31,741 nt of DNA from a virus. Shown in pieces: positions 6,310 to 28,542 of this stretch. The stretch covers positions 1-31,741 of IMG/VR virus record IMGVR_UViG_3300048590_001406; one strand, given 5' to 3'. A model generated the notes under the pieces. It ran no database searches. It worked only from the letters and a program-made list of their open reading frames with translations, and was not told the DNA's origin. Position 1 is the first letter of the stretch. Each line of letters begins with the position of its first letter. Position numbers and translations under genes: made by a program.

Positions 6310-6337
6310 AAACTCTCGCAATTCTCTTTTTAATCAA

Positions 6338-7834: not shown

Positions 7835-7841
7835 TCAATAA

Positions 7842-7857: not shown

Positions 7858-7863
7858 GTGCAT

Positions 7864-9485: not shown

Positions 9486-9503
9486 CCCAACAATACTCAG
9501 CTC

Positions 9504-10475: not shown

Positions 10476-10537
10476 AGCGGTTTTGAGTTTCAGCCTCGAC
10501 TTGCAAACTGAAATTCAATCACGTTAAAACTTGACAA

Positions 10538-10714: not shown

Positions 10715-10738
10715 AGTTTTCATTCACTCAATTGTTAG

Positions 10739-10765
10739 GGGCGGGTATAAAAGCCCGCCCTTTTT
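10739..10765 (+). terminator. Rho-independent terminator three bases before a start codon
   Basis: The arms gggcggg (10739-10745) and cccgccc (10754-10760) with an eight-base loop are followed by five T (10761-10765). It separates tail tube genes from the tape-measure cluster. The T-tract ends only three bases before ATG 10769, so it must also shape initiation of that gene. Confidence 0.88.
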
Positions 10766-10768
10766 GCT

Positions 10769-11257
10769 ATGGCTACCATTCTTTCTATGATGCGAAAGTT
10801 TAAAGAACTGAACACAGACCTTGTCGTGTATCAGGCAATGAAAGAAGTGGAAACCGATTTCGAGGATTTGAACAAGGAGCAGTTGTATGACGGTAAAACA
10901 AAACTAGGAACCGATATCCGCCCGAGTTATTTCGAGGATCCGTATTTCGAAACATACCAGGATGCTGCAGCTTATTCGGATTGGAAGGACAAAATCACGC
11001 CGAACATTAGGAGAAATCCGGGCACGCCCAACTTATACATAAACGGATACTATTATGAGAGTCGAAAGGTGGTTGTATTGCCGGATGTGATTCTCCATAC
11101 GACGACCTGGGGTGAAGGCGATGAGATTGCGGATAAATATAAAAACATCAACGGTTTGGGTGGCAGCTACAAGCGAATATTTCTGAAAGACTACCTGATG
11201 CCGGTTTTGAGTGACAAGATGTTTGAGAAATTGGGTTTACGAATGAGAAAAAACTAA
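10769..11257 (+). CDS. Conserved-looking tail-region protein, unknown role
   Basis: The 162-residue product has a helical N-terminus (MMRKFKELNTDLVVYQAMKE, then VETDFEDLNKEQLYDGKTKLG) and an aromatic-rich middle (YFEDPYFETYQ, NLYINGYYYESR), ending in a basic tail (LGLRMRKN). The DLNKEQLYDGK and RNPGTPNLYINGYYY segments recall a small protein found next to tail genes in other Bacteroidota phages and prophages. That comparison is from memory. It may be a tail completion or minor tail component. It starts directly after a terminator, so its expression may depend on readthrough. Confidence 0.7.
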   Translation: MATILSMMRKFKELNTDLVVYQAMKEVETDFEDLNKEQLYDGKTKLGTDIRPSYFEDPYFETYQDAAAYSDWKDKITPNIRRNPGTPNLYINGYYYESRKVVVLPDVILHTTTWGEGDEIADKYKNINGLGGSYKRIFLKDYLMPVLSDKMFEKLGLRMRKN

Positions 11258-11261
11258 TGAA

Positions 11262-11462
11262 ATGAGTTGTGAGAGTTGTATTACGGGGCCGCGTGGTCAG
11301 GCGGAGGAACTGGCGAGGGTCCGTCAATTAGCGAAACAGTATGCTCAAGCGCAAGAAAAAACAGTTGCCATCTACCGAGAAGGGCTCGAATTCAGATACT
11401 GCGAGCACGATCAAGCAATCGCCAACCGAATGCTCGTCGTTGAAGTTGTTTCGCAGCATTGA
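11262..11462 (+). CDS. Small unknown protein overlapping the next gene
   Basis: The 66-residue product begins MSCESCITGPRGQAEELARV and ends with IANRMLVVEVVSQH. It has a CxxC at residues 3-6, a central helix (EELARVRQLAKQYAQAQEK) and a beta-like tail (TVAIYREGLEFRYCEHDQAI). The tail pattern 'vaIYREG-EFRYC' followed by a hydrophobic VVEVV end looks like a real small domain. It starts four bases after the previous stop. Its last 122 bases overlap the next frame in the +1 register, and an A6 run at 11356-11361 lies in the overlap. It may be an independent small protein or the first half of a frameshifted tail-assembly pair. Confidence 0.6.
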   Translation: MSCESCITGPRGQAEELARVRQLAKQYAQAQEKTVAIYREGLEFRYCEHDQAIANRMLVVEVVSQH

Positions 11463-12057
11463 TGATCTGCCTTTGTCTCGCTTTATCGATCTGGTTGTTG
11501 ATGACAACCTTTTCGCATTGGTGATATCCGGGACACCGACTGAACGGGATCTGTTGACGGCGTTTGACCAGGTGCAGCGTGAATACGCGGAGGTGATGAA
11601 AGACGGAGAATTTGATCTGCTAAATAAAACGATGCGCGAAATCAACAGGCTGAATCTCCTCTATGAGCAGATATTGGAACTGGTTGGTGTGTTGCGTCGG
11701 TATTATAATGAGAAGCTGGCGAGACTGCTGACCAAGTATCTCGGATACAATTTGAACCTCAATCCGAAGCTTCCGGAGGACTACGATAAGGCCTTGGATC
11801 GGGCGATCAACCGAAGTAAATCAATCCTCATTGACATCAAGTTAAAAAGCAGTCAATTGGAGGCAATGCAGGAAAAGCAGCAAAAAGAAACAACCAAGCC
11901 CACACGCCGGCATTTTCAGGGGGTGTTGATCGCATTGAGCAATCATGTCGGGTTTTCCATCACAGACAACATAACTGTTTTTGAGTATTGCAATCGTGTA
12001 CACCAGCTGAATAAATATCTGGATCAACTAAATCGGGAGCGAAATGGACGAGGATAA
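11341..12057 (+). CDS. Putative tail assembly protein upstream of tape measure
   Basis: The 238-residue frame has a basic, low-complexity N-terminus (MLKRKKKQLPSTEKGSNSDT) and a helical domain from about residue 33 (KLFRSIDDLPLSRFIDLVVD onward, with FALVISGTPTERDLLTAFDQ). The domain continues through long helices and ends in a basic tail. The LPLSRFIDLVVDDN-ALVISG pattern is one I associate with proteins just before the tape measure in Bacteroidota phages. This is the place of tail-assembly chaperones (gpG/gpT-like). It overlaps the previous gene by 122 bases and the tape measure by 14 bases. The start at ATG 11341 is the only good one ahead of the domain; entry by frameshift is an alternative. 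Confidence 0.7.
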   Translation: MLKRKKKQLPSTEKGSNSDTASTIKQSPTECSSLKLFRSIDDLPLSRFIDLVVDDNLFALVISGTPTERDLLTAFDQVQREYAEVMKDGEFDLLNKTMREINRLNLLYEQILELVGVLRRYYNEKLARLLTKYLGYNLNLNPKLPEDYDKALDRAINRSKSILIDIKLKSSQLEAMQEKQQKETTKPTRRHFQGVLIALSNHVGFSITDNITVFEYCNRVHQLNKYLDQLNRERNGRG

Positions 12058-15000
12058 AATAGAAGAGTACGTTGACCGAACCGGTTTTGCTCAGGATACA
12101 GAGTTTGTCCTGAAGGAACTGAACAAGGTTTATGAGGCCTTCAAGAAATTGGATGGCTATCGGTTCCGTCTGGGTACACCGGTCGGTATGACGGAAACGG
12201 TTCAAGTGACAAAAGAGGCGGTGAAGGAATTTGAAAAAGCAACGGAGGCCAATAAGAAACTGGCGGAGTCAGAAAAGGTTGCGGCACAAGCAGCAAAAAT
12301 TGCGAGTAGTAGCTATTCTGAACTGGCGGCAGTAGCGGCAGCGAATGAAATCGCGATGAAGAGATTGGCTGCCTCGAAAAAGGAGGTTGAAAAAGCCTTT
12401 AAGGATGGAAAGATTTCTGAAGAGCAGTACCTGCTTTCATTGGCTAAAATAAAGGAGCAACAGACAGCTTTTTCGGTTTCCCAGCAACAGGTGAATCTCT
12501 CGCTTAAGAATTTAGAAAAGGAAGCACAGGCGGCAGAGGGGTCCCTTAATGAGATGCGAGCTCAGTTGTCGCTCGCCCAGATGGCATGGGATAAGCTTTC
12601 GGAGACTGACAGGCAAAGTGAAATTGGTGCTCAGTTGCTCAACAACGTCAATACGCTCAATAAGGCTGTGAGCGAGTTGGAACAGTCTTCAGGCCGGTTT
12701 CAGCGTAACGTGGGAAACTATCAAGGGTCCGCTCGAATTATTGTTGATGCGTTAAAGGATGTAGAGAAAGAAATTGAGACGCTGAAGAACCGGCAAAATG
12801 AGCTGCAAAATCTGAGTAAATCCAATCCAATTGGATTCAAGTTGCAGGGCGGATCCGACGAACTCGGTCAAATAAATGCCCGTTTAGCAGAGACTACCAA
12901 ACAGTTTGAGGTTCTTGATCGGATTACAACACAACCTCGTTTCTTAAATATTGCAGCGAAGTCTGGTGATTTACAAAAGGAGCTCAGTGAATTCCGGAAG
13001 CGCCTCATTGAGTTAGAAGACGCTGGTTTGAGAAATACGAAGGTGTACACTGATGTTCAGAAGCGTCTGGCGCAATTGACCGATCAAATTGCCGACACAA
13101 AAGATGAAATTAAAGCGCTGTCATCCGATACCAGGCAGTTTGATTTGTTTGCCGGCGGAGTGAAATTACTGGCGTCCGCGTGGCAGATAGGTGCGGGGGC
13201 GGCCACTGCTTTTGGCGCCAATGCCCAGACGGTTGAAAGATCCCTCCAAAAACTGGTAGCGATTCAGAATGTCGCTCAAGGCGTTCAGTCGATCGCTAAT
13301 GAGTTGACAACAAAGGGCACTGTCGCTAATAAACTTTACAATACCGTACTCGAACAGGGTAGTATTCTTTTCGGAAAAGGGGCTACTGCTGCTGCACGAT
13401 TTGGGGTTGCTCTGAAAAGTATTGCATTACTCGGTGTTGCTGCTATGCTTTTGGATATGGCTGACTCCATGGGTCTGTTTGGTACGCAGACAGCAGCGGC
13501 CAAAAAGGAAGTGGATGATTTAAACGAATCGCTGCAGCGGCAAATTGACCTGCTCAACGAACAACTCAAAATTATTGACACCGCCGGTGATTTGCAGCTC
13601 GCCAAACTTCGACAACAAACGGATGACAGGAATAGGATTTTCGAATCAGAACAAGATAATCGTAGGGATCAACTTAGAGCCATATTGGAGGAACAAGATA
13701 AAATTTCCAAAGCTATAGGCGAAACACAGGCAGGGCTGAGCCGTTTGGGACCCGACACAAAATGGTATGATACGTTTGCGAAACAAGAGAAGGCGAGGCT
13801 TTTTCAACTTCTAGGACTCTACAATAAACAATTCGAAGAGCTAAGGAAACAGGCTATTGATAAAACAAATGAAATAGCGCTGGCCGAGGAAAACGAGAAG
13901 GCCGCACTTGCTGAAGAGGCTCGAAAAAAAGAACAAGAGCGGGCCGATAAAAGGCTTCGCGATGCCCGACAATATGCCGAAAAAGAGCGTCGTGCTCGGC
14001 TCGATTTACTACTGCTGCAATTGGAGGCTGAGGCCGAACTGTCCGCGGCCCAGGCAGATATCAGCACTCAAGACGGTCCTAGGGAGCGTGCGCTTGATCG
14101 TGAGTTTGAGCTGCGCAAAATGATGATCGAGGCAACGCGGGATTTCGAATTGAATTCTGAAGGTGTAACCGAAACGCAGCGGAAAGTGATCATTGCGCAG
14201 GCCGAACGCGACATTTATGCATTGCGCTTGGAATTTATCGAGAAGACTACGGCGGCTCGAATTAAAGCACGGCAGGAAGAGGAGGATTTGATCATTGCTC
14301 AAGCGCAAGAAATAGCCAATGAGGAGCTGAAGGCGGTTGAGCAAGCGCTGAAGAAACTAAACAAAGAGAATGACAGTCGTGCGAGTGTTTTGTCGATCGA
14401 CAAAGATACTGAGCTAAAGAATCTCAATTTACTGTTTGCTGCTGGTGCCATCAGCAAAGAGGAATATGAGGAGAGAAAGCAAAGGATTGAAGCTGAATAT
14501 CTGCGTAATAGCCTGTTGGCGCAGATTGCTTATTACCGCGAGGTTGTCAAAATCAGCGGATTGTCGAACGACGAGAAGGAAAAGGCACTTCGGGAACTTG
14601 CCAAGTTAGAGCGCGAACTCAGCGAATTCACCATTCGTACAAATAAAGAGGCAGCCGAAGAAACAAAAAGTGAGTGGGAGCAAACTGTAGATTATTTAAT
14701 AAATGCACGGTCACAGATCATTGATCTGGCAGCAGGTTTATTTACCGCAGGATTTGAGCGAGAAAAGAATGCCATTCAGGACCAGATCGATCTTTTGGAC
14801 GAGAAGTCTCAAAAGGAAATCGAGCTGGTAAATCAGACAATAGCCAATGAGGAGCGTAGGGAAGCTGCAATTTCAATTATTGAGGCAAGAGCGGCAGCGC
14901 GCCGCAGAGTCCTGGAAGCGGAGCAACGCAGGGTAGATCAGCAACGCGCAAGGTTTGAGAGGGTCGCTCAGATTGCTAAGATAATTGGCGATACTGCCAG

Positions 15001-15520
15001 CGCAGTCACTGAGGCTTTGCCCAATATTCCTTTATCTATCGCGGTTGGTGCTATTGGTGGTTTACAACTTCTCAGAGTTCTGTCCACAGAAATTCCCAGA
15101 TACAAATTTGGTAAGGGCCCAGGCGATAAATATGAAGGTTTTGCAATTTGGGGTGACGGTGGCAAGCGTGAATTAAAGTTGAGCACAGACGGATCGACGG
15201 AAGTTTCCGGAACGACTCCCACGGTTACACACGTAAAGCGGGATGATTTGATTTTCCCAGATGCTGACTTGTATATGAGGTTGGCCAACGCGAATGCAGA
15301 AAGGGTTCGGCGCCGGGCTCAGGAGTATTTCGACAAAAGGGATAACGGATCCGTTGACCTAAAACCTGTAGTGTCAGTTATGAGCAGGGGATTGAACACG
15401 CTTAATCGCACTATCAAAAATAAAAGGGAAATACATTTCAATGGTTTGACGCCGGCTCAGAGAGCTGTCAAATACCGGCGCGGCCATCGAGAGTATTTCG
15501 ATATGAATGGTATTGACTGA
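12044..15520 (+). CDS. Tail tape measure protein
   Basis: This 1158-residue protein sets tail length and probably aids DNA entry. It is almost entirely helical with long coiled coils (roughly 45-150, 230-370, 490-800 and 930-990). A segment RFQRNVGNYQ, typical of tape measure proteins in this group, lies near residue 225. One hydrophobic stretch lies near 452-475 (ALKSIALLGVAAMLL) and another near 985-1010 (ALPNIPLSIAVGAIGGLQLL). The C-terminal 150 residues are compact (FGKGPGDKYEGFAIWGDGG and after) and resemble the end domain of tape measure proteins that carries a GxxxxELxL-type motif. If alpha-helical throughout at 1.5 angstrom per residue, the tail would be about 170 nm. The stop overlaps the next ATG by one base. 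Confidence 0.93.
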   Translation: MDEDKIEEYVDRTGFAQDTEFVLKELNKVYEAFKKLDGYRFRLGTPVGMTETVQVTKEAVKEFEKATEANKKLAESEKVAAQAAKIASSSYSELAAVAAANEIAMKRLAASKKEVEKAFKDGKISEEQYLLSLAKIKEQQTAFSVSQQQVNLSLKNLEKEAQAAEGSLNEMRAQLSLAQMAWDKLSETDRQSEIGAQLLNNVNTLNKAVSELEQSSGRFQRNVGNYQGSARIIVDALKDVEKEIETLKNRQNELQNLSKSNPIGFKLQGGSDELGQINARLAETTKQFEVLDRITTQPRFLNIAAKSGDLQKELSEFRKRLIELEDAGLRNTKVYTDVQKRLAQLTDQIADTKDEIKALSSDTRQFDLFAGGVKLLASAWQIGAGAATAFGANAQTVERSLQKLVAIQNVAQGVQSIANELTTKGTVANKLYNTVLEQGSILFGKGATAAARFGVALKSIALLGVAAMLLDMADSMGLFGTQTAAAKKEVDDLNESLQRQIDLLNEQLKIIDTAGDLQLAKLRQQTDDRNRIFESEQDNRRDQLRAILEEQDKISKAIGETQAGLSRLGPDTKWYDTFAKQEKARLFQLLGLYNKQFEELRKQAIDKTNEIALAEENEKAALAEEARKKEQERADKRLRDARQYAEKERRARLDLLLLQLEAEAELSAAQADISTQDGPRERALDREFELRKMMIEATRDFELNSEGVTETQRKVIIAQAERDIYALRLEFIEKTTAARIKARQEEEDLIIAQAQEIANEELKAVEQALKKLNKENDSRASVLSIDKDTELKNLNLLFAAGAISKEEYEERKQRIEAEYLRNSLLAQIAYYREVVKISGLSNDEKEKALRELAKLERELSEFTIRTNKEAAEETKSEWEQTVDYLINARSQIIDLAAGLFTAGFEREKNAIQDQIDLLDEKSQKEIELVNQTIANEERREAAISIIEARAAARRRVLEAEQRRVDQQRARFERVAQIAKIIGDTASAVTEALPNIPLSIAVGAIGGLQLLRVLSTEIPRYKFGKGPGDKYEGFAIWGDGGKRELKLSTDGSTEVSGTTPTVTHVKRDDLIFPDADLYMRLANANAERVRRRAQEYFDKRDNGSVDLKPVVSVMSRGLNTLNRTIKNKREIHFNGLTPAQRAVKYRRGHREYFDMNGID

Positions 15521-17760
15521 TGAGAACAAATGTGCACTTTATAACAGAGGAGGACGGCCGGAGTTTGTCGGTTGTAAATGGAGTGGTAACACCATCTTCA
15601 CAGCCAAAGCATTTGCAGAATCCTCCTGCTGGCGCAAAGGATGTGGTTATCTCCTGGGAGCGTATCAACAACCGGTATGGCATCCAAAGGACTTTCACGA
15701 CGCCGCTTCAATATGTGCTCGATGCAGCCAGGATAATCCGTCACTACGCTTACAACGTTAACTATGAGCACAAACTGTTTCACGTCATTCAGCGGCTGAA
15801 AACTTACACGGATGACACTACTTTTCGGCAGCGATACGAGTACCTCTACAAAGGGGAAATCGATTTATCGACAATGAAGGACGAGGAGGATTTCGTTAGC
15901 TGCAGCATCATGGAGGGCGGTCTGGATAAATTACTGAAAGCAAAGGAATCGACTGTTTTCGAAATTCCGTTTGATGACGATGCAATTCTGGTCAAAATGG
16001 ACGGTTTACCGCTTCAGGAAAGCCATACCTGGCTATCTCAAACGGGGCTGAGTGTCGGTAATAACTTATTGGGCTTGTCATTTATCAACAAAGAGGGTGC
16101 GGCTTTTGGCGTCGCGACCTTCACGGTTTTTAAGGAGGACGAGCCGGGTGACTTATCGACATCTGATAAATACTTTCTGGTAACGGCCCAGGCCATTGAC
16201 GATATTGAATTGAAAGGTTCACTGAGTTGGACAAGTTTAAGCAACGCCACAAGCGTTGAACTAAGGTTGAAGTCGAGCCTCGGCAAAAACCTACTGGTGG
16301 CGAGTGCATTAGTGTCATCGGGGAGAATTGACGATTTCACGTTTCAGTTCGACAGCGAGGAAAACGAGAAATGGTTTTTGATCATTTTGCCAGTCGGAGG
16401 CCTCGATACGATGGTGTTGAACGAGTCCACATTTACGATCAAGTATGAGTCGCGGTACCAGGAAACATTTGTGAAGGCATTCAAGCCCTACGACCTTTTT
16501 CGGAAGTTGGTTGAAAAAATCACAGGTAACGCTGACGATGCTGTTAGTACTCTTTTGCAGGAAGAGAGCAACTTGGTTTTGACTTCAGGAGATGCTGTTA
16601 GGGGATTGGAAGGGGCAGTTATAAAGACAAGTTTAGCGCAGTTTTATGACCATTGTAACCCGGTACATTTTGCCGGCGAGGGCATTATCAATAGTAAAAT
16701 TGAAATTGCGCCTCGCGAGAAATACTACAACGCAAGTGACCCAATCCATTTGGGGAGTGTGAAGAATTTCAAACGGTCCTTCGCAACGGATTTACAAGGG
16801 AACAAGTTGAAAATGGGTTGGCAGCCACCTGACGTGGAGGATGTGAATGGAAAGTTTGCCTTTAATGGTTCGCTGAATTTACAATCTGAAATTACTCGGG
16901 TTGTGCGGGATTTAACGATGTTGAGCCCGTACAGTTCAGACCCTTATGAAATTGAGATCACACGGATCAATTTGGATGGAAAGACGACGACGGACGACTC
17001 TGCAGATAACAAGGTTTTTTGTTTGAATGTCACTCCGCTTCCGAGTCAATACAGCGATAGTTTTGTCGCCTTTCAGGATTTGGGAGGTCAGTATACCATT
17101 GGAGCGGTATCATCATCCATACCGGTACAGCCAGGCACAAAATTTATAACGTCAGACACTACCAACCCGGGGCCGTTTACTGTGGTGTCTCTTTTGCCTT
17201 TGTTGGGGCAAATCATCATAGTGGTCGAAGAGCCTGTGACTAACGTCGCTGGCGCGCCGGTAACCTTGACTATTGTTTCCGGATTGCCGCATGAACTGAC
17301 CCGTAAGAATTATGACACTATAGAGGGCGTGCCTACATCTGATGTATTCAATATTGAGGAGTTAACGCCGAAACGACTGGCTTTAAAAAATGGTCCCTGG
17401 CTGAGGTCGGTCTTTCATCCTTTTGATAATACAAACCTCGAATTTACCAGTACAGATCGAAACAAAGATTTGTTGACGACTCTCGACGGTCTGACGATAG
17501 CGGAGAAGGCTGCCATTGCGATTAGTTCGCTGGGCGGAAAACTCTTCAAGCCACTCTATTTTGAATTTGAAACAGAGGTTCCTCAGGATCTGATCGATCT
17601 TTTAGAGGCTAACCCAAATCGGTGCTTTTCGTTCGATTGGAATGGTGAGACATACAAAGGTTTCAATGTAAAAGTATCGATAGCAATAAATACAGAGGAG
17701 TCCCAGTCGCTGAAGTTGCTGTGTGCCCCTGATGTTGATCTTTCAAAATTCGTAATGTAA
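15520..17760 (+). CDS. Distal tail / baseplate protein
   Basis: A 746-residue structural protein follows the tape measure in the slot of the distal tail (Dit/Tal) proteins that form the tail tip. It is beta-rich without signal peptide or membrane segment. An N-terminal domain (1-130) contains ISWERINNRYGIQRTF. A 150-310 region has a beta-sandwich, CBM-like pattern (SWTSLSNATSVELRLKSSLG, FQFDSEENEKWFLIIL). The rest continues in mixed beta to a C-terminal domain with FNVKVSIAINTEESQSLKLL. No catalytic motif is evident. The next gene begins directly after its stop with no spacing. Exact tail-tip role is inferred from order. Confidence 0.72.
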   Translation: MRTNVHFITEEDGRSLSVVNGVVTPSSQPKHLQNPPAGAKDVVISWERINNRYGIQRTFTTPLQYVLDAARIIRHYAYNVNYEHKLFHVIQRLKTYTDDTTFRQRYEYLYKGEIDLSTMKDEEDFVSCSIMEGGLDKLLKAKESTVFEIPFDDDAILVKMDGLPLQESHTWLSQTGLSVGNNLLGLSFINKEGAAFGVATFTVFKEDEPGDLSTSDKYFLVTAQAIDDIELKGSLSWTSLSNATSVELRLKSSLGKNLLVASALVSSGRIDDFTFQFDSEENEKWFLIILPVGGLDTMVLNESTFTIKYESRYQETFVKAFKPYDLFRKLVEKITGNADDAVSTLLQEESNLVLTSGDAVRGLEGAVIKTSLAQFYDHCNPVHFAGEGIINSKIEIAPREKYYNASDPIHLGSVKNFKRSFATDLQGNKLKMGWQPPDVEDVNGKFAFNGSLNLQSEITRVVRDLTMLSPYSSDPYEIEITRINLDGKTTTDDSADNKVFCLNVTPLPSQYSDSFVAFQDLGGQYTIGAVSSSIPVQPGTKFITSDTTNPGPFTVVSLLPLLGQIIIVVEEPVTNVAGAPVTLTIVSGLPHELTRKNYDTIEGVPTSDVFNIEELTPKRLALKNGPWLRSVFHPFDNTNLEFTSTDRNKDLLTTLDGLTIAEKAAIAISSLGGKLFKPLYFEFETEVPQDLIDLLEANPNRCFSFDWNGETYKGFNVKVSIAINTEESQSLKLLCAPDVDLSKFVM

Positions 17761-18699
17761 ATGGCAGTTTTTAAGATACCATACCTAAATCCGGTTCACT
17801 TTGTGAAGATGACGCCTGACGAAGTGCCGGCGTATGTTTCCCGACATATCGACGCCTGGTCATTTGAGGAGACCATTGAGAGTTGGGAGCAGCATGTTGT
17901 TTGGCCTCCGCTGTGGCAAAAATCAGACAGTATCCCACTTCAATTTATTTCAACCTACGGTCCCATTACAGTCAAGCAGTGCAAATGTGATGGCACCGTA
18001 CTGGCGACGACGTCCGTTAGTCAGGTCCGGCAGAACGTATACGATCCGACAGAGTTTATTTATGAAGCAGCGTTGCCTCAGTCGATATTCGATGAGGGCG
18101 ATTACTATCTGCAATTGGAACTCGGTTCTGGTACACCTGTGGTATTTATTTATTCTTTTAAACTTTCTGAAAGAATTGAAAATTCTCTTTGTTTGGAGTA
18201 CTTTCACAGAGAATTTAAGGACGGGATGTTCTTTGAGACAGGATTTAGGCCGCGGATGAGGATACCTGGATTGTTGAAGATGAAGCAGCCGACGAGTAGC
18301 CACACAGAATACGAAGACGAGGATTATAATCTTGAAACGCTGAAAGGTGTCGGCTATGAGATTTATCAACTGCAGGTAGGTATTGGGACAGTGAACCCTG
18401 TTGGTGTCCCTCCCTGGCTGATAAAGAAGCTCAATCGGATTCTGACGCTGTCAAACATTTCATTCGATGGCAGGGAGTACGTAAAAAATGGTGAAGCGGC
18501 TTTCGAAGAGGCAACGGAGCAGGACTACCCGTTGAGTGTTTGGACGATCGAACTGCGTGAAAAAGTTCGTCGTGATTCAATTATCTATGAAGACGATGTA
18601 ATTGTGGAAGGACAATTTGCGGTTGTGTTGGTGTCCGACTCAAAAGGATTTGGCACTCAGGCACCGGGATCAGATTACTTCATTCAAGATGTTCAGTAA
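17761..18699 (+). CDS. Tail tip / baseplate protein, unknown family
   Basis: The 312-residue protein is beta-rich and acidic, with many aromatic residues (YLNPVHFVKMTPDEVPAYVS, EESWEQHVVWPPLW-like segment near 45). A beta domain in the first half (QFISTYGPITVKQC, YYLQLELGSGTPVVFIYSF) is followed by a second domain (LKGVGYEIYQLQVGIGTVNP). It has no signal peptide. It begins immediately after the previous stop and overlaps the next start by one base, so the three tail-tip genes are translationally linked. A part in the tail tip is likely, but no known family was recognised. Confidence 0.68.
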   Translation: MAVFKIPYLNPVHFVKMTPDEVPAYVSRHIDAWSFEETIESWEQHVVWPPLWQKSDSIPLQFISTYGPITVKQCKCDGTVLATTSVSQVRQNVYDPTEFIYEAALPQSIFDEGDYYLQLELGSGTPVVFIYSFKLSERIENSLCLEYFHREFKDGMFFETGFRPRMRIPGLLKMKQPTSSHTEYEDEDYNLETLKGVGYEIYQLQVGIGTVNPVGVPPWLIKKLNRILTLSNISFDGREYVKNGEAAFEEATEQDYPLSVWTIELREKVRRDSIIYEDDVIVEGQFAVVLVSDSKGFGTQAPGSDYFIQDVQ

Positions 18700-20078
18700 T
18701 GTCACAGATTGGACTTGTTATTAAGATGACCACTTACACGGATGATCTATTGATCGTCTGGAAAAAGGCGTCTGCTCCGCTTGCCGAAGTCGGACGGTCT
18801 GCGCCCTTACCCTTCCCCGTCGATCAAAAATACTGGATTCCGGATCTTCAACCAGGCTCCTACATTGTAGAGTTCTGGCGTAGTGTTGACGGTGATGCGC
18901 TCACAGAGTATATCACAACATGGGTCATCGATTCAAGTTTGTTTGCTGAATATGGATCCACTATTTACGAATATGTTGTGGGTCGAGGTCAGAGTGGTTC
19001 AAATCCGGATTGGGCTGACCCAGCCAATGGAGACGGCGCGGTAGGAACTCCGCTCGTTGATGAAAGACTGGCCGGCGTGACCCATACCAATGCATTTATC
19101 GAAAGCCGCGGCCATGGGAAGTACCGGCAGGATGAAATCACCTTTGTTCCTACAGGTGGATTCTATTTCGCAGATGGCGTTACGCGGTTCAATGAGGGAG
19201 ATACTTTTTTTGTCACGGTGCAGAACGCTTCCAGTGTGGCTAGCGGTACTGGCACAGCCGCGGTCGATGACTTTACCGATATCATTGAGTTGCGGGATGA
19301 TGTTGACAATTCTATCGATTTTAATTCATCCCTCTACCGTAAAGTTTGTCACACTGGTTTCACCGGGGCTGTGGGTACAGTTGTATTCCCGTCGTTCGCG
19401 CTTATTCCAGATACAAAGGTCAGATTCCTATGTCACCGAGGCAGCCAGAACTATCTGAAGTTGCAATTTTCTACCGGTGAAACGGTCGTTTTGGATGGCG
19501 AAAGTAAGAACGTGATTTACCTGGAACGCGGAGCCATGATTGAACTGTGGTTCAAAAATAATGTGTGCTACGTAGCCGACTACAAGGGGAACAATCAACT
19601 AAGGGGCCGGGTGGCTCCGGATTATTCCCTCCGTTCTGGGATGGGCATGTTTATAAGGGCTGATGGTTCGCTGATCTCTGGAAACAACTATCCGGGTATA
19701 TATGAGTTCGTCACCGAGAAACTGCCTGTAGGGGCTTCGGTTGACCTTACAACGTGGTCGGCCAGTACCAACAATCAGAAAAAGTGGGGAGTGAATACGA
19801 CCACAAAAGAAATACGGGTTCCGAATTTGGCGGGTGTGTCTCAAAAGTTTTCCAACTCCGACGTATCGGGCACGTATGAGGCAGATCAGGTGGGCCCGTT
19901 CACATTAAGTATTCCGACATCGGCACTGACAAAGAACGACGAAGGCTCGAGTTTGGATAGTAAACTGGCAACAGGCGGAGCGACACCGCCACCGGCAGCC
20001 GCGATATCGTTTGCCGTTTCGCCGTCAACAGAAAACAGAGTTAAAGGGGTGATACAATACCCCATGATATATTTATGA
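18699..20078 (+). CDS. Tail fibre protein with collar-like C-terminus
   Basis: The product has 459 residues. The N-terminal part is a baseplate-attaching beta domain (DLLIVWKKASAPLAEVG, WIPDLQPGSYIVEFW), followed by a shaft-like region. From about residue 315 it shows the order of phage tail-collar domains: GMGMFIRADGSLISGNNYPG, then a G-x-WSAST segment, then KEIRVPNLAGVSQKF (compare 'F-LPDLRG'). It ends TENRVKGVIQYPMIYL, where collar proteins have 'ENRPKN-VNY-I'. It is therefore probably a short fibre or receptor-binding protein. Its stop overlaps the next gene by four bases, linking it to the SGNH fibre. No signal peptide. Confidence 0.75.
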   Translation: MSQIGLVIKMTTYTDDLLIVWKKASAPLAEVGRSAPLPFPVDQKYWIPDLQPGSYIVEFWRSVDGDALTEYITTWVIDSSLFAEYGSTIYEYVVGRGQSGSNPDWADPANGDGAVGTPLVDERLAGVTHTNAFIESRGHGKYRQDEITFVPTGGFYFADGVTRFNEGDTFFVTVQNASSVASGTGTAAVDDFTDIIELRDDVDNSIDFNSSLYRKVCHTGFTGAVGTVVFPSFALIPDTKVRFLCHRGSQNYLKLQFSTGETVVLDGESKNVIYLERGAMIELWFKNNVCYVADYKGNNQLRGRVAPDYSLRSGMGMFIRADGSLISGNNYPGIYEFVTEKLPVGASVDLTTWSASTNNQKKWGVNTTTKEIRVPNLAGVSQKFSNSDVSGTYEADQVGPFTLSIPTSALTKNDEGSSLDSKLATGGATPPPAAAISFAVSPSTENRVKGVIQYPMIYL

Positions 20079-23000
20079 AAAAACGGTTCTGGGCTTTGCG
20101 GGATAAATACCTGCCAGCCCTCTTAATCACGCTGTTCGCTGCGATAGCTGCGGACGGTCAGGTGTATCAGCGGAATTTAACCGGGTACGGAAACCAAGGA
20201 AGGCGATTAGCAGCCGACAGCACGATCAACATTCCTACAGGTTGTGGCGCGCCCACTACTACTCAGGAACACGGCATGCAGGGCGAAATGCGCATGGCCA
20301 AATTGTTCTATGATTCCTGTAACGCAAAGTTTTACATCTACAACCCTTCAACGAGTACTTGGAACACGGCAGCTACCGGATCAGGCGCTGGGATTTCGGA
20401 GATTATTGCAGGCTATGGACTCCTTACAGTTAACGACTCCACTCAGAAGGTAGACTCCTCACTTATCGCAACGAAGCTGTATGCGCTTCATCTGAAAGAT
20501 AGTATTCTCGCCAACATTCCTGCAGTTGGTCCTCCCGGCATCGGTCAGGTAGTCGGCACCAATGGGCTGAGTACTGTGAATGATAGCACGCTGGCTATTG
20601 ACTTTAAAGACAGCCTGACTGTTAAAGCGTATCAGGAAAAGAAAATCTGGGCTTGGTGGGGAGACTCGATGACGGAGTTGCCAGCTGGCGGTTCGAGTAC
20701 AACGGCCACACAGTCATTGTTGGGGTATCAGATTTTTAATAAGGGAATTTCCGGTAACACTTCTACTGAAATCAGGACGAGGTTTGAAGTAGAACCAGGC
20801 CTCAGGAAGTATGCCACTATCATTTGGAGTGGCGCTAACAACTTTGCAAATAAGACGACTGTGGTCCAGGACATTCAAAGTATGGTGGCCAACCTGGGCC
20901 ATCAAAACTATGTCGTCATTGGTGTTACAAAGACCACACTGCAGACCGTAGGCACGTCAACAAGTGATCAAGTCGACGCATTAAATGATACGCTGCGGCA
21001 AGTATTTGGAGTCCACTTCAAAGACGCGAACGACTACTTTGTCAATGTGGTTCCTGCTCTCACTTCGCAGGATAACACGGACCGGGCCAACGAAATTCCG
21101 CTGTCATCCTACCGATCAGACAACCAGCACCTGAATCGTCTGGGCACCATTTACATGTCCTATTTCATTCGAGACAGCTGCCTCGCACAACTGGCGCCGG
21201 CCAGCATTGATGGCGCGGTGATTGGGGACGATATTTTCGAGGCCTATCAGAATAAATCATCGATCAGCTCAGTAGGATCGTTGAGAGCGGTAAACCATAG
21301 CGCCGAGTCTGGCCTGGATATCACCTCAGTGGGTGGCTATGCGTATAGATGGCCGGAGAAGCTGACCAATAATTTAATGACATCCGATTTGTCCGGATGG
21401 ACGGCAACAGACTGGACATGGGCCAACCCCGGGGCAACACATACAACAGGAAACACTTCGGTATTGTCGCAGAATATTACCGGCGTTCTGGTTGGTCAGT
21501 TGTATCAGATCGAGTTCACGATCGCCAGCTCAGCCGGTACTGTCGATGTTGATTTCGGCACAGTGAAGGTATTTGACCCGGTATCGATAACTAACGGGTC
21601 TTTCAAAAAATTAGTCCTTGCTCCGTCGTCGGCTACTCAGCTATTCAAGTTCACACCTACATCGACATTTAACGGAACAATCACCAATGTTTCTGTCCGA
21701 TTGGTTAGAACAGAAAGAGAGGCGACTATCGCCGTTCGTGATACGGCTAATAATATTCTTTTTCAGTTAAGAGCTTACCCAAATGACTATTTTACGATTG
21801 GTAAGTATAATGGCATATTCAATCAGTCTACTTCTAAGTCGGTTGTTATTGGCGATTATGCAGGGAGAGAATTGGCGAACGCCACCGGAATGGCGATTTA
21901 TGGATATGCTGCAGGACAAAGAAATAATAACAGTTCCTATGGCAGCCTGTACGGGTATCAATCGGGTCGTGAATTTCGCGAATCTTTGTGGTATGCCGGA
22001 TTTGGAGCAAATTCGTTGTTTTCTGCAACTATTGCGAAGTATGTTTCAGGATTTGGTGGAAGAGCGTTGGAGTCATTAACACAGGGTGATGCAAATACGG
22101 GTTCCGGTTATTATGTACTAGGGAGGTATACCACAGGCGCTAGTAACACGGCAAACGGGTTCCAGTCAGGTGCTTACGGGACTACCGGCAGCAACAACAC
22201 TTACGATGGCCGAGATGCAGGATATGTTCCTGATGGTGCCACAAACGGATATTACGAAGGAAGCAATGGGACCTTTATCGGCGCTCGCATTCGCCCGTGG
22301 TCTCGTACACAAAATAATCAGTTGGCGATTGGCATCTACGATCGTCGCCTGATTGGCTACGACGGTCTGCAGCATTTTAAGTTCAACGCCCTCAACTATG
22401 ACGACAACAATATAGCTACAAATGTTTCTTTTGACTTTCAAAGTATAACTGGCGGCCTTCGACCTCCGTACATGACTGAGACGCAGCGCAATGCGATCAG
22501 CACGCCGGGCCATGCGTCGGTAATCTTCAACCTCACCGCTAACCAGTTCAATTGGTACGATTCTATTGCTACAACGTGGCAGGTTGGGCTGGGGTCTGGT
22601 AGTGGAAGCGGCACCAATAACGCCAATGCTGGCAGCGGTTTCCGTTTTCTGAAACCTGCTTCTCAACAGATCAAAACATTATTCGGCGGTTACGGGCTGA
22701 CCATCGATAGCACCAGCAACACAGACGGTATAACAATCGCGCTCGACACTGCAACCGTGTTCGATGCTGTTCGCGCTACTATACCTGCAGGTAGTGGTTC
22801 CGCTAACCTAGCCAACACCGACCTAACACAGACCGCGGAACCGAGAATATTTGATCACAACGGTTTAGATTTTCAATGGACTGATAACGGAGAGACCAGG
22901 TGGTATGGGTATGGCGGCTATTCATCAGAAAGAATAATGATTGTTGACGGTAAAGTGGGGCGTTGGTATGGGGGCCGAATTGGCACAGGAGTGTATTTCG

Positions 23001-23635
23001 AGGCAGGAGATAGTTTGTATGCAAGAGGCGTCGCAGCATCGGCAGACACGGCGAATAAATACGTACTTGTTGAAACTAGCAACGACGGTATACAAAAAGT
23101 AAGAGCGGGCGCATTTGGTGGCGGTGGCAGCTCCGACGGCTGGCTCCGCGCGGTTGTCACCACTGATTTCACGCTCAGCGACGTGAACACTGCACAGACT
23201 GCTTTTCCTTCAGCGATTGATCAGGTGACACTGGAAAGTGATGCAACCTATTATTTTGAATTTGGCTTCGACATGTCAACTGGAACGACATCTCACGGTG
23301 CCGGAATGGGCTTCGATTTGGGATCAGTGACTACTAACTACGTCAACTATCAGGTGATGGGCTACGCAGCCGCTGAGAATAATCAGGGGTCAATTCAAGC
23401 GACATCGTGGAGAACAAACACGACACCTGTCAACAACATGATGGCGGCGTCTACAGTTGCAGGCAATCACTTGAAAGGGTGGGGTTATATCAGCGTTAAC
23501 AGCGGTGGCGCCATCACCCCGCAGATCATTTTCTCTGCAGCACCCGGCGGTACCAACCTGATGAAGGCGGGAAGCTATATCCATTTCCGAAAAGTAGGCG
23601 ACGGATCATTTACCACTAACTCAGGATTCAATTAA
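20075..23635 (+). CDS. Large tail fibre-like protein with signal peptide and SGNH hydrolase domain
   Basis: The 1186-residue protein is modular. Residues 1-28 are a signal peptide (KKR, core LPALLITLFAAIAA, likely cut before Gln29). A TGCGAP/YNPSTSTWN segment follows, then two stalk repeats (GYGLLTVNDST near 109, TNGLSTVNDST near 159). An SGNH/GDSL hydrolase domain covers about 190-370: block I GDS with Ser198, block II GISGN, block III SGANN (Asn255), block V DNQH with Asp349 and His352. A beta-sandwich carbohydrate-binding-like domain lies at about 410-550, and Gly/Tyr/Asn-rich solenoid-like repeats (GDYAGREL, GYAAGQRN, GYQSGREF) at about 585-760. An RPPYMTETQRNAI segment near 795, a third stalk repeat near 868 and a C-terminal beta domain from about 1030 complete it. 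It probably deacylates surface polysaccharide during adsorption. The export signal on a fibre is unusual. Confidence 0.82.
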   Translation: MKKRFWALRDKYLPALLITLFAAIAADGQVYQRNLTGYGNQGRRLAADSTINIPTGCGAPTTTQEHGMQGEMRMAKLFYDSCNAKFYIYNPSTSTWNTAATGSGAGISEIIAGYGLLTVNDSTQKVDSSLIATKLYALHLKDSILANIPAVGPPGIGQVVGTNGLSTVNDSTLAIDFKDSLTVKAYQEKKIWAWWGDSMTELPAGGSSTTATQSLLGYQIFNKGISGNTSTEIRTRFEVEPGLRKYATIIWSGANNFANKTTVVQDIQSMVANLGHQNYVVIGVTKTTLQTVGTSTSDQVDALNDTLRQVFGVHFKDANDYFVNVVPALTSQDNTDRANEIPLSSYRSDNQHLNRLGTIYMSYFIRDSCLAQLAPASIDGAVIGDDIFEAYQNKSSISSVGSLRAVNHSAESGLDITSVGGYAYRWPEKLTNNLMTSDLSGWTATDWTWANPGATHTTGNTSVLSQNITGVLVGQLYQIEFTIASSAGTVDVDFGTVKVFDPVSITNGSFKKLVLAPSSATQLFKFTPTSTFNGTITNVSVRLVRTEREATIAVRDTANNILFQLRAYPNDYFTIGKYNGIFNQSTSKSVVIGDYAGRELANATGMAIYGYAAGQRNNNSSYGSLYGYQSGREFRESLWYAGFGANSLFSATIAKYVSGFGGRALESLTQGDANTGSGYYVLGRYTTGASNTANGFQSGAYGTTGSNNTYDGRDAGYVPDGATNGYYEGSNGTFIGARIRPWSRTQNNQLAIGIYDRRLIGYDGLQHFKFNALNYDDNNIATNVSFDFQSITGGLRPPYMTETQRNAISTPGHASVIFNLTANQFNWYDSIATTWQVGLGSGSGSGTNNANAGSGFRFLKPASQQIKTLFGGYGLTIDSTSNTDGITIALDTATVFDAVRATIPAGSGSANLANTDLTQTAEPRIFDHNGLDFQWTDNGETRWYGYGGYSSERIMIVDGKVGRWYGGRIGTGVYFEAGDSLYARGVAASADTANKYVLVETSNDGIQKVRAGAFGGGGSSDGWLRAVVTTDFTLSDVNTAQTAFPSAIDQVTLESDATYYFEFGFDMSTGTTSHGAGMGFDLGSVTTNYVNYQVMGYAAAENNQGSIQATSWRTNTTPVNNMMAASTVAGNHLKGWGYISVNSGGAITPQIIFSAAPGGTNLMKAGSYIHFRKVGDGSFTTNSGFN

Positions 23636-23641
23636 TAATAT

Positions 23642-25318
23642 ATGAAAAAACTACTCACCCTCTTACTGGTACTGCCGATTCTGGCAGGGGCGCAGGAAAT
23701 AAAATTCCCGGTTGTGTTCAATGGGAAAACTGACACCGCTACGCTTTATCTCCCAAAAAATTACGTAGTCTCTGACAGCATCGTTTGGAACTTCATTCCA
23801 AAGGACACTACTGTTCTGAACGTGATCCCAAAAGACACGGTTGTATTGAATGTTATTCCGAAGGATACAACCATTCTGAGGATATCGTACAAGGATACTA
23901 CGATCATCAGAATCAACTATCAGGACACCTGTTTCACTGCACCTGTTGACACGACAGACAATGGCGGCGGCCCGGTCGTTGACCCGCCACCCGTAACAGG
24001 GGAGGTGTTTGTGTTCAGTGTACAGCAGCGCACCGACTGGAATAATGTTTCCATCCCTTTCTCAAAGGGCGAAGTGTGGTCGGGTCAGTGGATAGCACCG
24101 CAGCCATACAAGGCAGCGGATAAGTATTTTCGATTCAGCATGCACATGTTCTACAATGCTGACGGTTCTTTCAGGTGGACAAAGTTTGATCAGGAATTTC
24201 AATCTGCTATCAATGCAGGTCAAAAATTTGCATTCGGAATTATGACGCATTACCCGGATCCGGCAAATGATCATATCCTGAGGTACGATAACGCATATTC
24301 CGCATACCCGAAATTTCTACATGACAGGATGCAAGCAGAGGCTGTGAAGGACTGGGTATCTGGCACCTCATGGGTTCCCAACTGGAACAGTGAAGCGTAC
24401 ATCAGCGAACTGTTAAGATTGCACAAAGCCATTTCATCTCACATACACGAGAAAGGATGGAGCGGATGGGTGAACTATATCGACGTTCGCGGTTATGGTG
24501 CATTCGGTGAGTGGCATGGGTACACAATTGCTGACCCGATCACTAATTCACCGGCAGGAACCAGAGCAACAGAGGCAACGCTGAAAAGAATCATCGACGT
24601 ACACACCGAAGGATTTCCTGATTGGCCGCTGGTACTGTTAGTATCGACATTTGACGCGAATAGGCTGAACAATACAAAGAACCCGCCCGGCGTCGCTGCG
24701 TATGCCCTGCGTGCCCGCAATAAGTGGGGACTGCTCGGATGGCGTCGCGATAACTGGGGCGCTACTGATGCCTATCTACGCGATTACACAGACCGAAATA
24801 CGGTTGTTGTGGATGGTATGCGTCTCGACACAGCGATCATGAACCGTTGGCGGTATGCTCCTATAGTTGGCGAACCATGCTGCACACCGAACTACAACGA
24901 TTTTCTGACACAGGTTCAGCGATACAGAGCGGTCAGCGTTGGGAACGGAAACTTTACCGCAGGCACAGTAAATGCAAACATAACAGCCGGATTGCAGGCT
25001 GCCGGGCACCGCCTAACCATTACCGGCGGCCAGTACAAGGACGGAACTGTAACTGTGAACTGGCGCAATGACGGCATTACTCCGATATACGAAGATTTCG
25101 ACGTGGTATTTGAACTGCGTACTGCCAACGGGCAGGTTGCAAAATCATACACATTTGAAAATTTGGTTTCAATGCGACTACCTGGCGGCTGGTCCACTAC
25201 ATCAAATTTAACCGGCCTGCCCGCTGGTACATACGATCTGCACGTCATTGTGAAGAACGATCAGCGGAGTTATCCTTTAGGAATCACGGGTTCAAAATTG
25301 GCAACTATCAAACTGTAG
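23642..25318 (+). CDS. Exported DUF4832-like putative glycoside hydrolase
   Basis: The 558-residue protein has a signal peptide (MKKLLTLLLVLPILAGAQ), a stalk of five decapeptide repeats (51-96) and a Pro/Gly linker (about 102-121). A catalytic-type domain (about 125-430) resembles DUF4832/DUF4874 TIM-barrel proteins, with WVNYIDVRGYGAFGEWHGY near residues 277-294 and Glu290 as a candidate catalytic acid. The following ATLKRIIDVHTEGFPDWPLV and GLLGWRRDNWG segments also fit that family. A C-terminal beta-sandwich (about 435-558, TVNWRNDGITPIYEDFDVVF) matches the DUF4832-type end domain. It likely cleaves or binds a host polysaccharide. It lies seven bases after the fibre gene and before the lysis genes. 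The family call is from pattern memory, and substrate and catalysis are inferred. Confidence 0.75.
   Translation: MKKLLTLLLVLPILAGAQEIKFPVVFNGKTDTATLYLPKNYVVSDSIVWNFIPKDTTVLNVIPKDTVVLNVIPKDTTILRISYKDTTIIRINYQDTCFTAPVDTTDNGGGPVVDPPPVTGEVFVFSVQQRTDWNNVSIPFSKGEVWSGQWIAPQPYKAADKYFRFSMHMFYNADGSFRWTKFDQEFQSAINAGQKFAFGIMTHYPDPANDHILRYDNAYSAYPKFLHDRMQAEAVKDWVSGTSWVPNWNSEAYISELLRLHKAISSHIHEKGWSGWVNYIDVRGYGAFGEWHGYTIADPITNSPAGTRATEATLKRIIDVHTEGFPDWPLVLLVSTFDANRLNNTKNPPGVAAYALRARNKWGLLGWRRDNWGATDAYLRDYTDRNTVVVDGMRLDTAIMNRWRYAPIVGEPCCTPNYNDFLTQVQRYRAVSVGNGNFTAGTVNANITAGLQAAGHRLTITGGQYKDGTVTVNWRNDGITPIYEDFDVVFELRTANGQVAKSYTFENLVSMRLPGGWSTTSNLTGLPAGTYDLHVIVKNDQRSYPLGITGSKLATIKL
23792..23929 (+). repeat. 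Five in-frame 30-base repeats (decapeptide stalk)
   Basis: Within the exported glycosidase, residues 51-96 form five register-perfect decapeptides: FIPKDTTVLN, VIPKDTVVLN, VIPKDTTILR, ISYKDTTIIR and INYQDT. The DNA copies have diverged at third positions, so the repeat is maintained at protein level and is not a recent slippage product. It probably forms an extended beta stalk between the signal peptide and the enzyme. Confidence 0.85.
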
Positions 25319-25324: not shown

Positions 25325-25555
25325 ATGAGTTCACAACAACTTGCGATCATTCTTTTTCTGGCAGGCCAAACTGTTTTATTCATCACTACTTGCGTGACGG
25401 TATACGTCCGAATCATTGGACGTCTGAAGGAATTGGAGGTGAGAGTGCAGATGATGGAAAGGCAGGAAAACCGAGTGTTGAGTAAACTCGACGATATCAC
25501 TGAGCAACTTTCAGATTTAAAAACTGCCATCCAAAACAAACAGGATCGGCAATAA
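25325..25555 (+). CDS. Membrane-anchored coiled-coil protein of the lysis region
   Basis: The 76-residue protein has one N-terminal transmembrane helix (about 6-28, LAIILFLAGQTVLFITTCVT) and a charged coiled coil to the end (RLKELEVRVQMMERQENRVL, LDDITEQLSDLKTAIQ). Small proteins of this layout occur beside phage holins (haemolysin XhlA-like, but with the membrane helix at the N-terminus). It starts seven bases after the glycosidase stop and ten bases before the holin-like gene. A role as holin partner or lysis accessory is inferred from position and topology. Confidence 0.75.
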   Translation: MSSQQLAIILFLAGQTVLFITTCVTVYVRIIGRLKELEVRVQMMERQENRVLSKLDDITEQLSDLKTAIQNKQDRQ

Positions 25556-25565: not shown

Positions 25566-25961
25566 ATGATACTACTCTTCATCTTGCTGCAGATCCTCAG
25601 CGAAACGTTCAACCTGTTTATGGAAGACTTGACCATACCTATGCTACTCGCTGGGTCGCTTATGGCGTTTGGTGGCAATCTATTCAGAGTGGTGCTTGGT
25701 GCTACTGACCGAGATCCCGCAAGCACAAGGACACCTTACAAGTTTTCATGGCGCTTCCTTTTTAGCGACAATGCGCGGAGGTTCTATAATTCGACGGCTG
25801 CCTCCATCCTTGCTGTATTCTTTTCGCTAAGGTTTTCCAACCAGCTTTTTGGAACTGCTTTTAGTATGGTTTTTTGTTTTCTGCTGGGATTTGGCCTTGA
25901 CAAGTTAATTCAGAATTGGAAGGAAATACGCAGACTCATCACATTCAATCGAGGCAAATGA
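25566..25961 (+). CDS. Holin-like multi-pass membrane protein
   Basis: The 131-residue product has three or four hydrophobic segments: residues 1-14 (MILLFILLQILSETF region), about 24-47 (IPMLLAGSLMAFGGNLFRVV) and one or two between about 78 and 113 (AASILAVFFSLRF, GTAFSMVFCFLLGFGL). A basic loop (RDPASTRTPYKFSWRF) lies between them and the tail is basic (RRLITFNRGK). Size, topology and place, two genes before the spanin-like and four before the amidase, suit a holin that permeabilises the inner membrane. No holin family signature is evident. The stop overlaps the next ATG by four bases. Confidence 0.65.
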   Translation: MILLFILLQILSETFNLFMEDLTIPMLLAGSLMAFGGNLFRVVLGATDRDPASTRTPYKFSWRFLFSDNARRFYNSTAASILAVFFSLRFSNQLFGTAFSMVFCFLLGFGLDKLIQNWKEIRRLITFNRGK

Positions 25962-27115
25962 AACACGTTCGTGTCATCATCGCAATACTGCTGATCCTGC
26001 TCGCCTGGTTCGGATCCGGGTGCATCAATGCGAAGAAGGCGAGCAATTACATGCGCAATCATCCGGATGTAGCGGCTCCGGTGTGCGCGGATCTGTTCCC
26101 GGTGAAAACAGTAACAGATACCAAGGCCTTCGACAGCTCCATCGCAGTGATCGATTCACTCATCGCAGCGATCGATGAACGGCGGGACCTGACCGATGCT
26201 GAACGCGCGGAGTTATATGGACTGATCGACCGTCTGCAGAACGATCGCCCGGATTGCGACAGCGTGATGCTGCCGGCACTGGATCTGATATCGAAGGAAC
26301 GACAGCGAGCTGATCAGCTGGCCAGCGACAACAAAAGGCTTCAGCAGGCAGCCAGGAATGTAAAGCCTATCCGCGATACAGTTGAGAACACCGCGAAGAC
26401 GCGGGCCTATCGACTACAACTCCAACAATGTGAAGACGAAAAGTTGAAGCTCACGCAGGACCTGAGTAAGATGACGGAAAGCCGGGATGAATGGCGCAGC
26501 AGGGCCAGAGGGTGGAAGTGGAAATTCTGGATCCTGTTGATCATTGCTGCGTTTCTGATTTTCCGCAAACAGATTTTTTCATTGATAACTAAAATACCAT
26601 TTATGAAATCGATTTTGATTTTCCTGATGGCCACACTGATGCTGGCCAGTTGCAGCAACAAACCGGACGACGTTGTTCACAAAGAAACCAGCGAGCAGGT
26701 AGGCTGGAAGCTGAACGAAGCAGGGACCGCTAATGAACCCGTAATTGAAAAGTTCTACACGATCAGCCCGACCTGGGGCCAGTCGTTCGGTTATGCCTAC
26801 CAGGGCGGCTATGCGCTATGGCTACTGTTCGGCATTGTGATGTTAGCCGGCGCGGTGTGGGTGTTCTACTGCGAGGCAAAAGATCTTCCGATTGTGGCGA
26901 ACTGGGATCCGAAGTTCAAAAAACTGATCGGGGTTGTACTGGTGTTTATATCGATTGCGTCACTATTTGGCCAGCCTTCCTATGTGAAGTGGAATAATTA
27001 CAAACCGGTCCCGGCATCGCAGTACAATGAAGCGATGGCAAGAGATGGAAACACGCAGGCAATCTGGGATAGCCTTGCGGAAAGCCGTTTAATTCTGGGA
27101 GGCGATCCAAAGTGA
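25958..27115 (+). CDS. Spanin-like lipoprotein fused in frame to a second lipoprotein
   Basis: From ATG 25958 the frame encodes 385 residues. The first part has a lipoprotein signal with lipobox GSGC (Cys22), a periplasmic helical/coiled-coil region (about 75-180) and a transmembrane helix at about 188-207 (FWILLIIAAFLIF). That is the topology of a one-protein (unimolecular) spanin tying outer to inner membrane. The frame then continues without a stop into Met216, which opens a second lipoprotein signal (MKSILIFLMATLMLASC, Cys232), a short soluble part and two more membrane helices (about 284-304 and 322-340). The junction passes a T6 run (26574-26579); losing or gaining one T would create an immediate stop. 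It may be two genes merged, or read via the internal start at 26603. A longer start at 25916 only re-reads the holin-like gene. Confidence 0.75.
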   Translation: MKHVRVIIAILLILLAWFGSGCINAKKASNYMRNHPDVAAPVCADLFPVKTVTDTKAFDSSIAVIDSLIAAIDERRDLTDAERAELYGLIDRLQNDRPDCDSVMLPALDLISKERQRADQLASDNKRLQQAARNVKPIRDTVENTAKTRAYRLQLQQCEDEKLKLTQDLSKMTESRDEWRSRARGWKWKFWILLIIAAFLIFRKQIFSLITKIPFMKSILIFLMATLMLASCSNKPDDVVHKETSEQVGWKLNEAGTANEPVIEKFYTISPTWGQSFGYAYQGGYALWLLFGIVMLAGAVWVFYCEAKDLPIVANWDPKFKKLIGVVLVFISIASLFGQPSYVKWNNYKPVPASQYNEAMARDGNTQAIWDSLAESRLILGGDPK

Positions 27116-27513
27116 TCAGCCTCGTTGTGATATCGCTTTTGTTCCTGGTGGAAGCATGGTTGGAGGAAGTTGTCATCGAGCTCAAGCACGGTGCAGTTCA
27201 AAACTACGCACGCCTGAACCGCCAGGAACATTTCCGCAGCAGTGTTTTTGCTGCCATTCTGATTTTGTCAGCATCAGTCACCGCGTTCTTTTGGGAGCAG
27301 GATCCATGGTCCCTGCCGGCGATTGTGGTAGCACGCCGGATATGGTTTGATTACGCCTTGATCATTTTCCGGGACCGGCCGCGCAACCGGTATGAAGGCA
27401 ACGACTGGTGGGGCTTGCGCCTGGCTGTATTATTCGGCAAGAAAGGCCGTATCCGTGAGCTCGCTGTTACTATAGCCCTAACCATATTCTGTATTTATAA
27501 AAGCCTCCTGTAG
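27112..27513 (+). CDS. Small membrane protein of the lysis cassette
   Basis: The product has 133 residues and starts at GTG 27112, which overlaps the previous TGA by four bases (GTGA). It has an N-terminal hydrophobic helix (ISLVVISLLFLVEAW), a second (VFAAILILSASVTAFF) and a third at the C-terminus (LAVTIALTIFCIYKSLL). A Trp/Arg-rich loop (ARRIWFDYALIIFRDRPRNR, GNDWWGLR) lies between the last two. No family is recognised. It lies six bases before the amidase gene and may be a second holin, antiholin or a membrane regulator. GTG is used because no in-frame ATG occurs before the first helix. Confidence 0.68.
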   Translation: MISLVVISLLFLVEAWLEEVVIELKHGAVQNYARLNRQEHFRSSVFAAILILSASVTAFFWEQDPWSLPAIVVARRIWFDYALIIFRDRPRNRYEGNDWWGLRLAVLFGKKGRIRELAVTIALTIFCIYKSLL

Positions 27514-27519: not shown

Positions 27520-28164
27520 ATGGCACGTCAGATCAACTATATCGTTTTCCATTGCACGGCTGGCCCGCAGACGCAGAGCGTGGAGGACATCAAAGCCTAC
27601 TGGAAAAGTAAAGGCTGGAAAAATCCAGGCTATCACATCATGATCGATGCTGCCGGCACTATTCACCGGCTTCAGCCCATTGACAAGATTTCGAACGGGG
27701 TGGCAGGATACAACAAGAACGCGGTTCACTGTTCCTACATCGGAGGCATTGACCAGCACGGCCGCGCGGTTGACAATCGGACCGCTGAGCAGCTGCAGTC
27801 TATGGAGCAAGTACTGAACGAGTGGCATGCGCTTTTACCCAATGCAGTGATCTGTGGGCATCGCGACTTTTCACCCGACAAGAACCGCAATGGCAAGATC
27901 GAGCCCGGTGAGTGGATTAAATCATGTCCATCCTTCGAGGTTAAAGACTGGCTCGCCCAGATCGGGTTTAAGTCTCAAGCTGCGGCGCCAATGCTGCGTA
28001 CAACGACCCGGGTCAACCTCAGAGAAGGGGAGGGCCTGCATTTCAAAGTCGTGAAGGTCCTGAACAGTGGAATCCCTGTTAAGAGACTCGCCACCGGCAA
28101 TGACTGGGTGTATGTTTCGGCGGCAGGTGTCACCGGGTGGATCAGTGAACGATTTTTAGAGTAG
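27520..28164 (+). CDS. Endolysin: zinc N-acetylmuramoyl-L-alanine amidase with SH3 domain
   Basis: The 214-residue product cuts the amide bond between muramic acid and the stem peptide. The catalytic Amidase_2 domain (about 1-150) has zinc ligands His11 (VFHCTAG), His114 (CGHRDF) and Cys136 (KSCPSF), with Tyr38 and Lys134 in the places of the T7 lysozyme catalytic residues. Between the last two ligands lies a perfect EF-hand type loop, Asp120-x-Asn122-x-Asn124-Gly-x-Ile-x-x-x-Glu131. The C-terminal part (about 158-214) is a bacterial SH3-like wall-binding domain (RVNLREGEGLHFKVVKVL, WVYVSAAGVTGWISERF). It has no signal peptide, so it should need the holin to reach the wall. It is the last enzyme of the lysis cassette. 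Confidence 0.95.
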   Translation: MARQINYIVFHCTAGPQTQSVEDIKAYWKSKGWKNPGYHIMIDAAGTIHRLQPIDKISNGVAGYNKNAVHCSYIGGIDQHGRAVDNRTAEQLQSMEQVLNEWHALLPNAVICGHRDFSPDKNRNGKIEPGEWIKSCPSFEVKDWLAQIGFKSQAAAPMLRTTTRVNLREGEGLHFKVVKVLNSGIPVKRLATGNDWVYVSAAGVTGWISERFLE

Positions 28165-28404: not shown

Positions 28405-28433
28405 TTTTTTTCTGTCATAAGCAGTTGTTAATT

Positions 28434-28464
28434 ACCCCGGCCGTTTCTACGGCTGGGTTTTTTT
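28434..28464 (+). terminator. Rho-independent terminator closing the late operon
   Basis: The arms cccggccg (28436-28443) and cggctggg (28450-28457), with one G:T pair and loop TTTCTA, are followed by seven T. It lies 30 bases after the last late gene. An eight-base C run (28468-28475) follows directly. Confidence 0.88.
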
Positions 28465-28542
28465 ATGCCCCCCCCACATAGATTTCAGAGACGTCAGAAA
28501 TCAATCAATGTCAGTGCGTTCCCTGCCCAGTTATTCGATGTA

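Follow-up and report, generated by a model that had tools for sequence, protein, structure and literature searches.

Unimolecular spanins (u-spanins) carry an N-terminal lipoprotein signal, a periplasmic domain and a C-terminal membrane helix in one chain (Kongari et al., PMC6139136). None of the 58 catalogued u-spanins contains a periplasmic cysteine, which is a tendency and not part of the definition, and gene extension by loss of a stop codon has been proposed, speculatively, as a route to u-spanins (PMC6139136). Unimolecular spanins are annotated in flavobacterial phages too (PMC8776804). In Rz/Rz1 pairs, the i-spanin is signal-anchored and the two components are separate chains, encoded by overlapped, embedded or separated genes. 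The locus described here lies in IMG/VR record IMGVR_UViG_3300048590_001406, which was analyzed over its whole length of 31,741 nucleotides (hereafter the window). This 31.7 kb virus record comprises tailed-phage genes, and its host is probably one of the Bacteroidota, as relatives of its terminase occur in two MAGs, one assigned to Sphingobacteriaceae and one to Bacteroidota. In its lysis region, a single open frame (25958-27115, plus strand) runs from an ATG at 25958 to a TGA at 27113-27115 and encodes 385 amino acids without an internal stop. The first part of this frame (half 1, gene A) has the layout of a u-spanin, and the second part (half 2, gene B) starts again as a lipoprotein from Met216. 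The arrangement recalls Rz/Rz1, with two putative lysis proteins back to back near an endolysin and a lipoprotein among them, but both halves here carry lipoprotein signals and share one frame.

Like u-spanins, of which phage T1 gp11 is the prototype, half 1 combines an N-terminal lipoprotein signal, a periplasmic domain and a membrane helix (residues ~189-205 by hydropathy), and it is encoded in a lysis cassette. The likeness shown to T1 gp11 is one of layout, not of sequence. The predicted lipidated residue is Cys22, in a lipobox (GSGC) whose Gly at position -3 departs from the consensus [LVI][ASTVI][GAS]C. The lipobox proposed for Cys22 in the preliminary description stands as to the cysteine, which aligns with the SGC and TGC boxes of the relatives described below, while the motif itself is off consensus. 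Half 1 further differs from u-spanins in its three periplasmic cysteines (Cys43, Cys100 and Cys158), in a periplasmic part that looks helical rather than beta-structured and in a frame that runs into a second gene, so that 180 residues follow a helix that is terminal in the relatives.

Two stand-alone relatives of half 1 were found in Sphingobacteriales prophages. The first, from a search of 300 genomes, is a lipoprotein (L039:1450-1965) that matches residues 9-48 with 38% identity over 48 columns; its prophage is the same as that in IMG/VR contig 2886932500 (L050). The second (L086:1234-1704, minus strand) matches residues 11-73 with 31% identity over 67 columns. The two also align with each other. 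Both start with a lipobox Cys, close with a membrane helix and share the motif 'R(N/Q)xP..A..C...FP'; periplasmic cysteines occur in them as well. Homology to half 1 covers the N-terminal 50-70 residues, the remainder being shared layout. Both relatives adjoin endolysins (GH108 and GH19) and, unlike the fused frame, stop within a few residues of the helix (WIRKK*, RIWTK*); half 2 is absent from both, and nothing like it follows downstream. A protein with the same lipobox and C-terminal-helix layout and its own stop directly follows the amidase in a Bacteroidota-type phage contig (L077), although sequence similarity is not clear in this case. Upstream of the lysis genes, the latter contig encodes a 469-amino-acid reverse-transcriptase-like protein (L077:2316-3725), preceded by a 620-amino-acid protein; this may be a diversity-generating element. 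The homologues support the two joined lipoprotein genes of the preliminary description, as stand-alone versions of the first part exist and close just behind the membrane helix. The lysis role proposed there for the whole frame is supported for half 1 through the cassettes of its relatives, which do not extend to half 2. On balance, a u-spanin-like mode of action is probable for half 1, to judge from layout and gene neighborhood.

The cassette around the fused frame is tight, as its genes lie 6-10 bases apart or overlap by 4 bases (Table 1). The overlap between the holin-like candidate and gene A reads ATGA, and the amidase endolysin is encoded two genes downstream of the fused frame. The product of the gene at 25566 is 33% identical over 80 amino acids to that of L039:237-596, and both lie in cassettes with a lipoprotein of the half-1 type. 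This family, a possible holin, also occurs in Sphingomonas phage PAU (gp13) and is unnamed in PHROGs and Pfam. Beyond the endolysin gene, the intergenic stretch 28405-28475 contains runs of T7, T7 and C8 close together. The terminase relatives G003, G010 and G012 were considered as comparators for the cassette and set aside, their lysis regions being unrelated.

Table 1. Features of the lysis region and its upstream neighbors in the window.
Feature	Coordinates	Strand	Basis or remarks
Tail-fibre-like protein	20075-23635		possible SGNH-hydrolase segment (WGDSMTE...); phrog_14008 match at residues 193-358
Secreted protein	23642-25318		short N-terminal tandem repeat (VLNVIPKDTT-like units), then large domain without clear family
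Small coiled-coil membrane protein, weakly XhlA-like	25325-25555	+	Pfam XhlA, E 5.6e-4, below curated cut-off
Membrane protein, holin-like candidate	25566-25961	+	homologous to L039:237-596 and phage PAU gp13
Gene A, u-spanin-like lipoprotein, residues 1-205 and short tail	25958-26585	+	stand-alone homologues beside endolysins; hydropathy
AT-rich junction with T6, out-of-frame TGA TAA and TAA	26570-26602	+	GC of 30 bases before Met216; stops listed by frame; reads as intergenic gap
Gene B, residues 216-385	26603-27115	+	own signal peptide and lipobox Cys232; start-like fold and base profile
Membrane protein	27112-27513	+	ORF; 4-base overlap with gene B (GTGA); no match
Endolysin, N-acetylmuramoyl-L-alanine amidase with SH3 domain	27520-28164	+	PHROG 822, E 2.9e-45; Pfam Amidase_2 and SH3_3

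Met216 (codon at 26603) resembles the usual starts of genes in this phage. Immediately 5' of it, 30 bases have a GC content of 0.17, the lowest among 136 internal in-frame ATGs, none other of which reaches this value; only 0.055% of internal codon positions are preceded by such low GC. It is also the only one of 128 internal methionines to be followed by a signal peptide and lipobox, here the consensus LASC ending in Cys232. Its predicted fold (MFE -2.6) is closer to the mean of real starts (-3.55) than to that of internal ATGs (-6.96), and its upstream base-profile score (-0.09) compares with means of -0.77 and -3.00, respectively; both values fall in the mid-range of real starts. Given the spacing within the cassette, 10-20 bases between two genes would be nothing unusual at this place. 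The AT-rich, intergenic character that the preliminary description had attributed to the junction is thus borne out.

The same description had drawn attention to a T6 tract at 26574-26579 within the fused frame, and its letters (the single frame, the tract, Met216, Cys232 and the stops in the shifted frames) all proved correct on recheck. Past the tract, one shifted frame reads H and then a tandem TGA TAA (26583-26588), and the other reads FIDN and then TAA (26590-26592). Such out-of-frame stops in both frames are fairly often expected within an AT-rich stretch of 30 bases. A consensus error, in which the true tract has another length or another junction base differs and two ordinary separate genes are present, would fit a one-base change that meets a stop, with two stops in tandem in one frame, and the junction is covered by one record only. 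However, tandem stops follow four of the 26 other genes checked in the window, so that the tandem is weak evidence, and intact genes of the window contain 34 runs of six or more identical bases. Moreover, window positions 1-18585 are 100% identical to contig 3300048591_001657 from another IMG sample (18.6 kb, including 23 such tracts), and 3.4 kb are 100% identical to 3300048589_001130. These observations weaken the sequencing-error option of the preliminary description, although the identical contigs end before or at 18.6 kb and thus short of the junction; we consider an error unlikely. Contig 3300048591_001657 itself reaches beyond the window on the upstream side of base 1, and it carries a DNA-methyltransferase-like gene (L011:6343-8256, minus strand).

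Slippage on the T6 tract, either transcriptional or ribosomal, could in principle yield both a short A protein and the fusion, as a one-base slip in either direction on codon 207 (TTT) reaches a stop within two to five codons. Yet T6 is short, and it does not exceed chance, the window having 47 single-base runs of six or more. The codons at the tract (CAG ATT TTT TCA) offer no canonical in-frame -1 heptamer of the form X XXY YYZ, and the junction is covered by no relative. The slippage option raised earlier found no positive support and is very unlikely. Nor is the tract needed to explain the merge, and a change in T6 is only one of several routes to it: a single substitution would turn codon 208 (TCA) into TAA or TGA, and codons 204, 205, 209 and 212 are likewise one step from a stop.

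Half 2 begins with the second lipobox and continues with membrane helices at ~283-305 and ~320-338 (hydropathy). Homologues were found neither in viral contigs, genome contigs and phage records nor in Bacteroidota genomes (936 genome searches; 300 + 395 + 241, in partly overlapping sets). Weak matches to transporters (L036, L037, L043), to L062 and to an alkylation-repair-like protein (L065) were rejected as chance hydrophobic or short alignments. Likewise, Rz-like PHROGs matched the fused protein only weakly and at the level of signal peptides; the matches fall on the second signal peptide only and so do not mark half 2 as a spanin. A single-sequence AlphaFold model had a mean pLDDT of 52.5, too poor for a fold search, and a PDB search returned chance matches only. 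The place of half 2 between a spanin-like gene and the endolysin suggests a role in lysis.

These observations make it reasonably probable that a recent loss of a stop codon joined the u-spanin-like gene A to a downstream lipoprotein or membrane protein gene B that still starts by itself. This reading draws on the open frame, the homology of half 1 to stand-alone proteins beside endolysins and the start-like, intergenic junction, and it agrees with the earlier proposal of two joined lipoprotein genes. Against it count the single record at the junction, the missing relatives of half 2, the short homology of half 1 and the periplasmic cysteines of the latter. The stop of gene A may have been lost through one substitution near codon 208 or through a one-base change in the length of the T tract. 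Gene A would then anchor its lipid at Cys22 in the outer membrane and its helix 189-205 in the inner membrane, and the membranes would be fused at lysis, whereas gene B would encode a small lipoprotein or membrane protein still initiated at Met216. The cell would be expected to make the 385-residue fusion as well as free B. The topology of the fusion would stay sensible, with helix 189-205 going in, the former signal peptide going back out and Cys232 in the periplasm. We infer that the fusion is the derived state, that its first half acts as a spanin and that both products are made.

Alternatively, the 385-residue chain may itself be the working product, a four-helix lysis protein kept by selection. 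Both halves are open, the linking codons contain no stop, and the pattern of hydropathy and charge fits a single chain. Nevertheless, the proteins related to half 1 stop once the helix is complete, and the junction is still intergenic in composition; it is followed by a second signal peptide with lipobox, which would be superfluous in a true fusion. This alternative is therefore unlikely. It is very unlikely that the frame encodes a working lysis polyprotein, a u-spanin followed by an internal lipoprotein signal, in which Lgt and LspA would process Cys232 and split the chain into two lipoproteins after its insertion, next to free B from Met216.

With stop-codon loss as the preferred reading, the fused frame is a real feature of modest interest. 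It is probably a recent run-together, known from one phage record, and a new mechanism is not likely to be behind it. A useful by-product is the family of u-spanin-like lipoproteins together with its cassette partner, the 25566/PAU gp13 family. The lipoproteins, which carry the R(N/Q)xP motif beside endolysins and are unnamed in PHROGs, Pfam and NCBIfam, add a Bacteroidota branch. Should the cell indeed produce the fusion, this would provide a test of lipoprotein-signal processing inside a chain, by LspA at Cys232. The locus possibly also captures a gene in the course of extension via stop loss.
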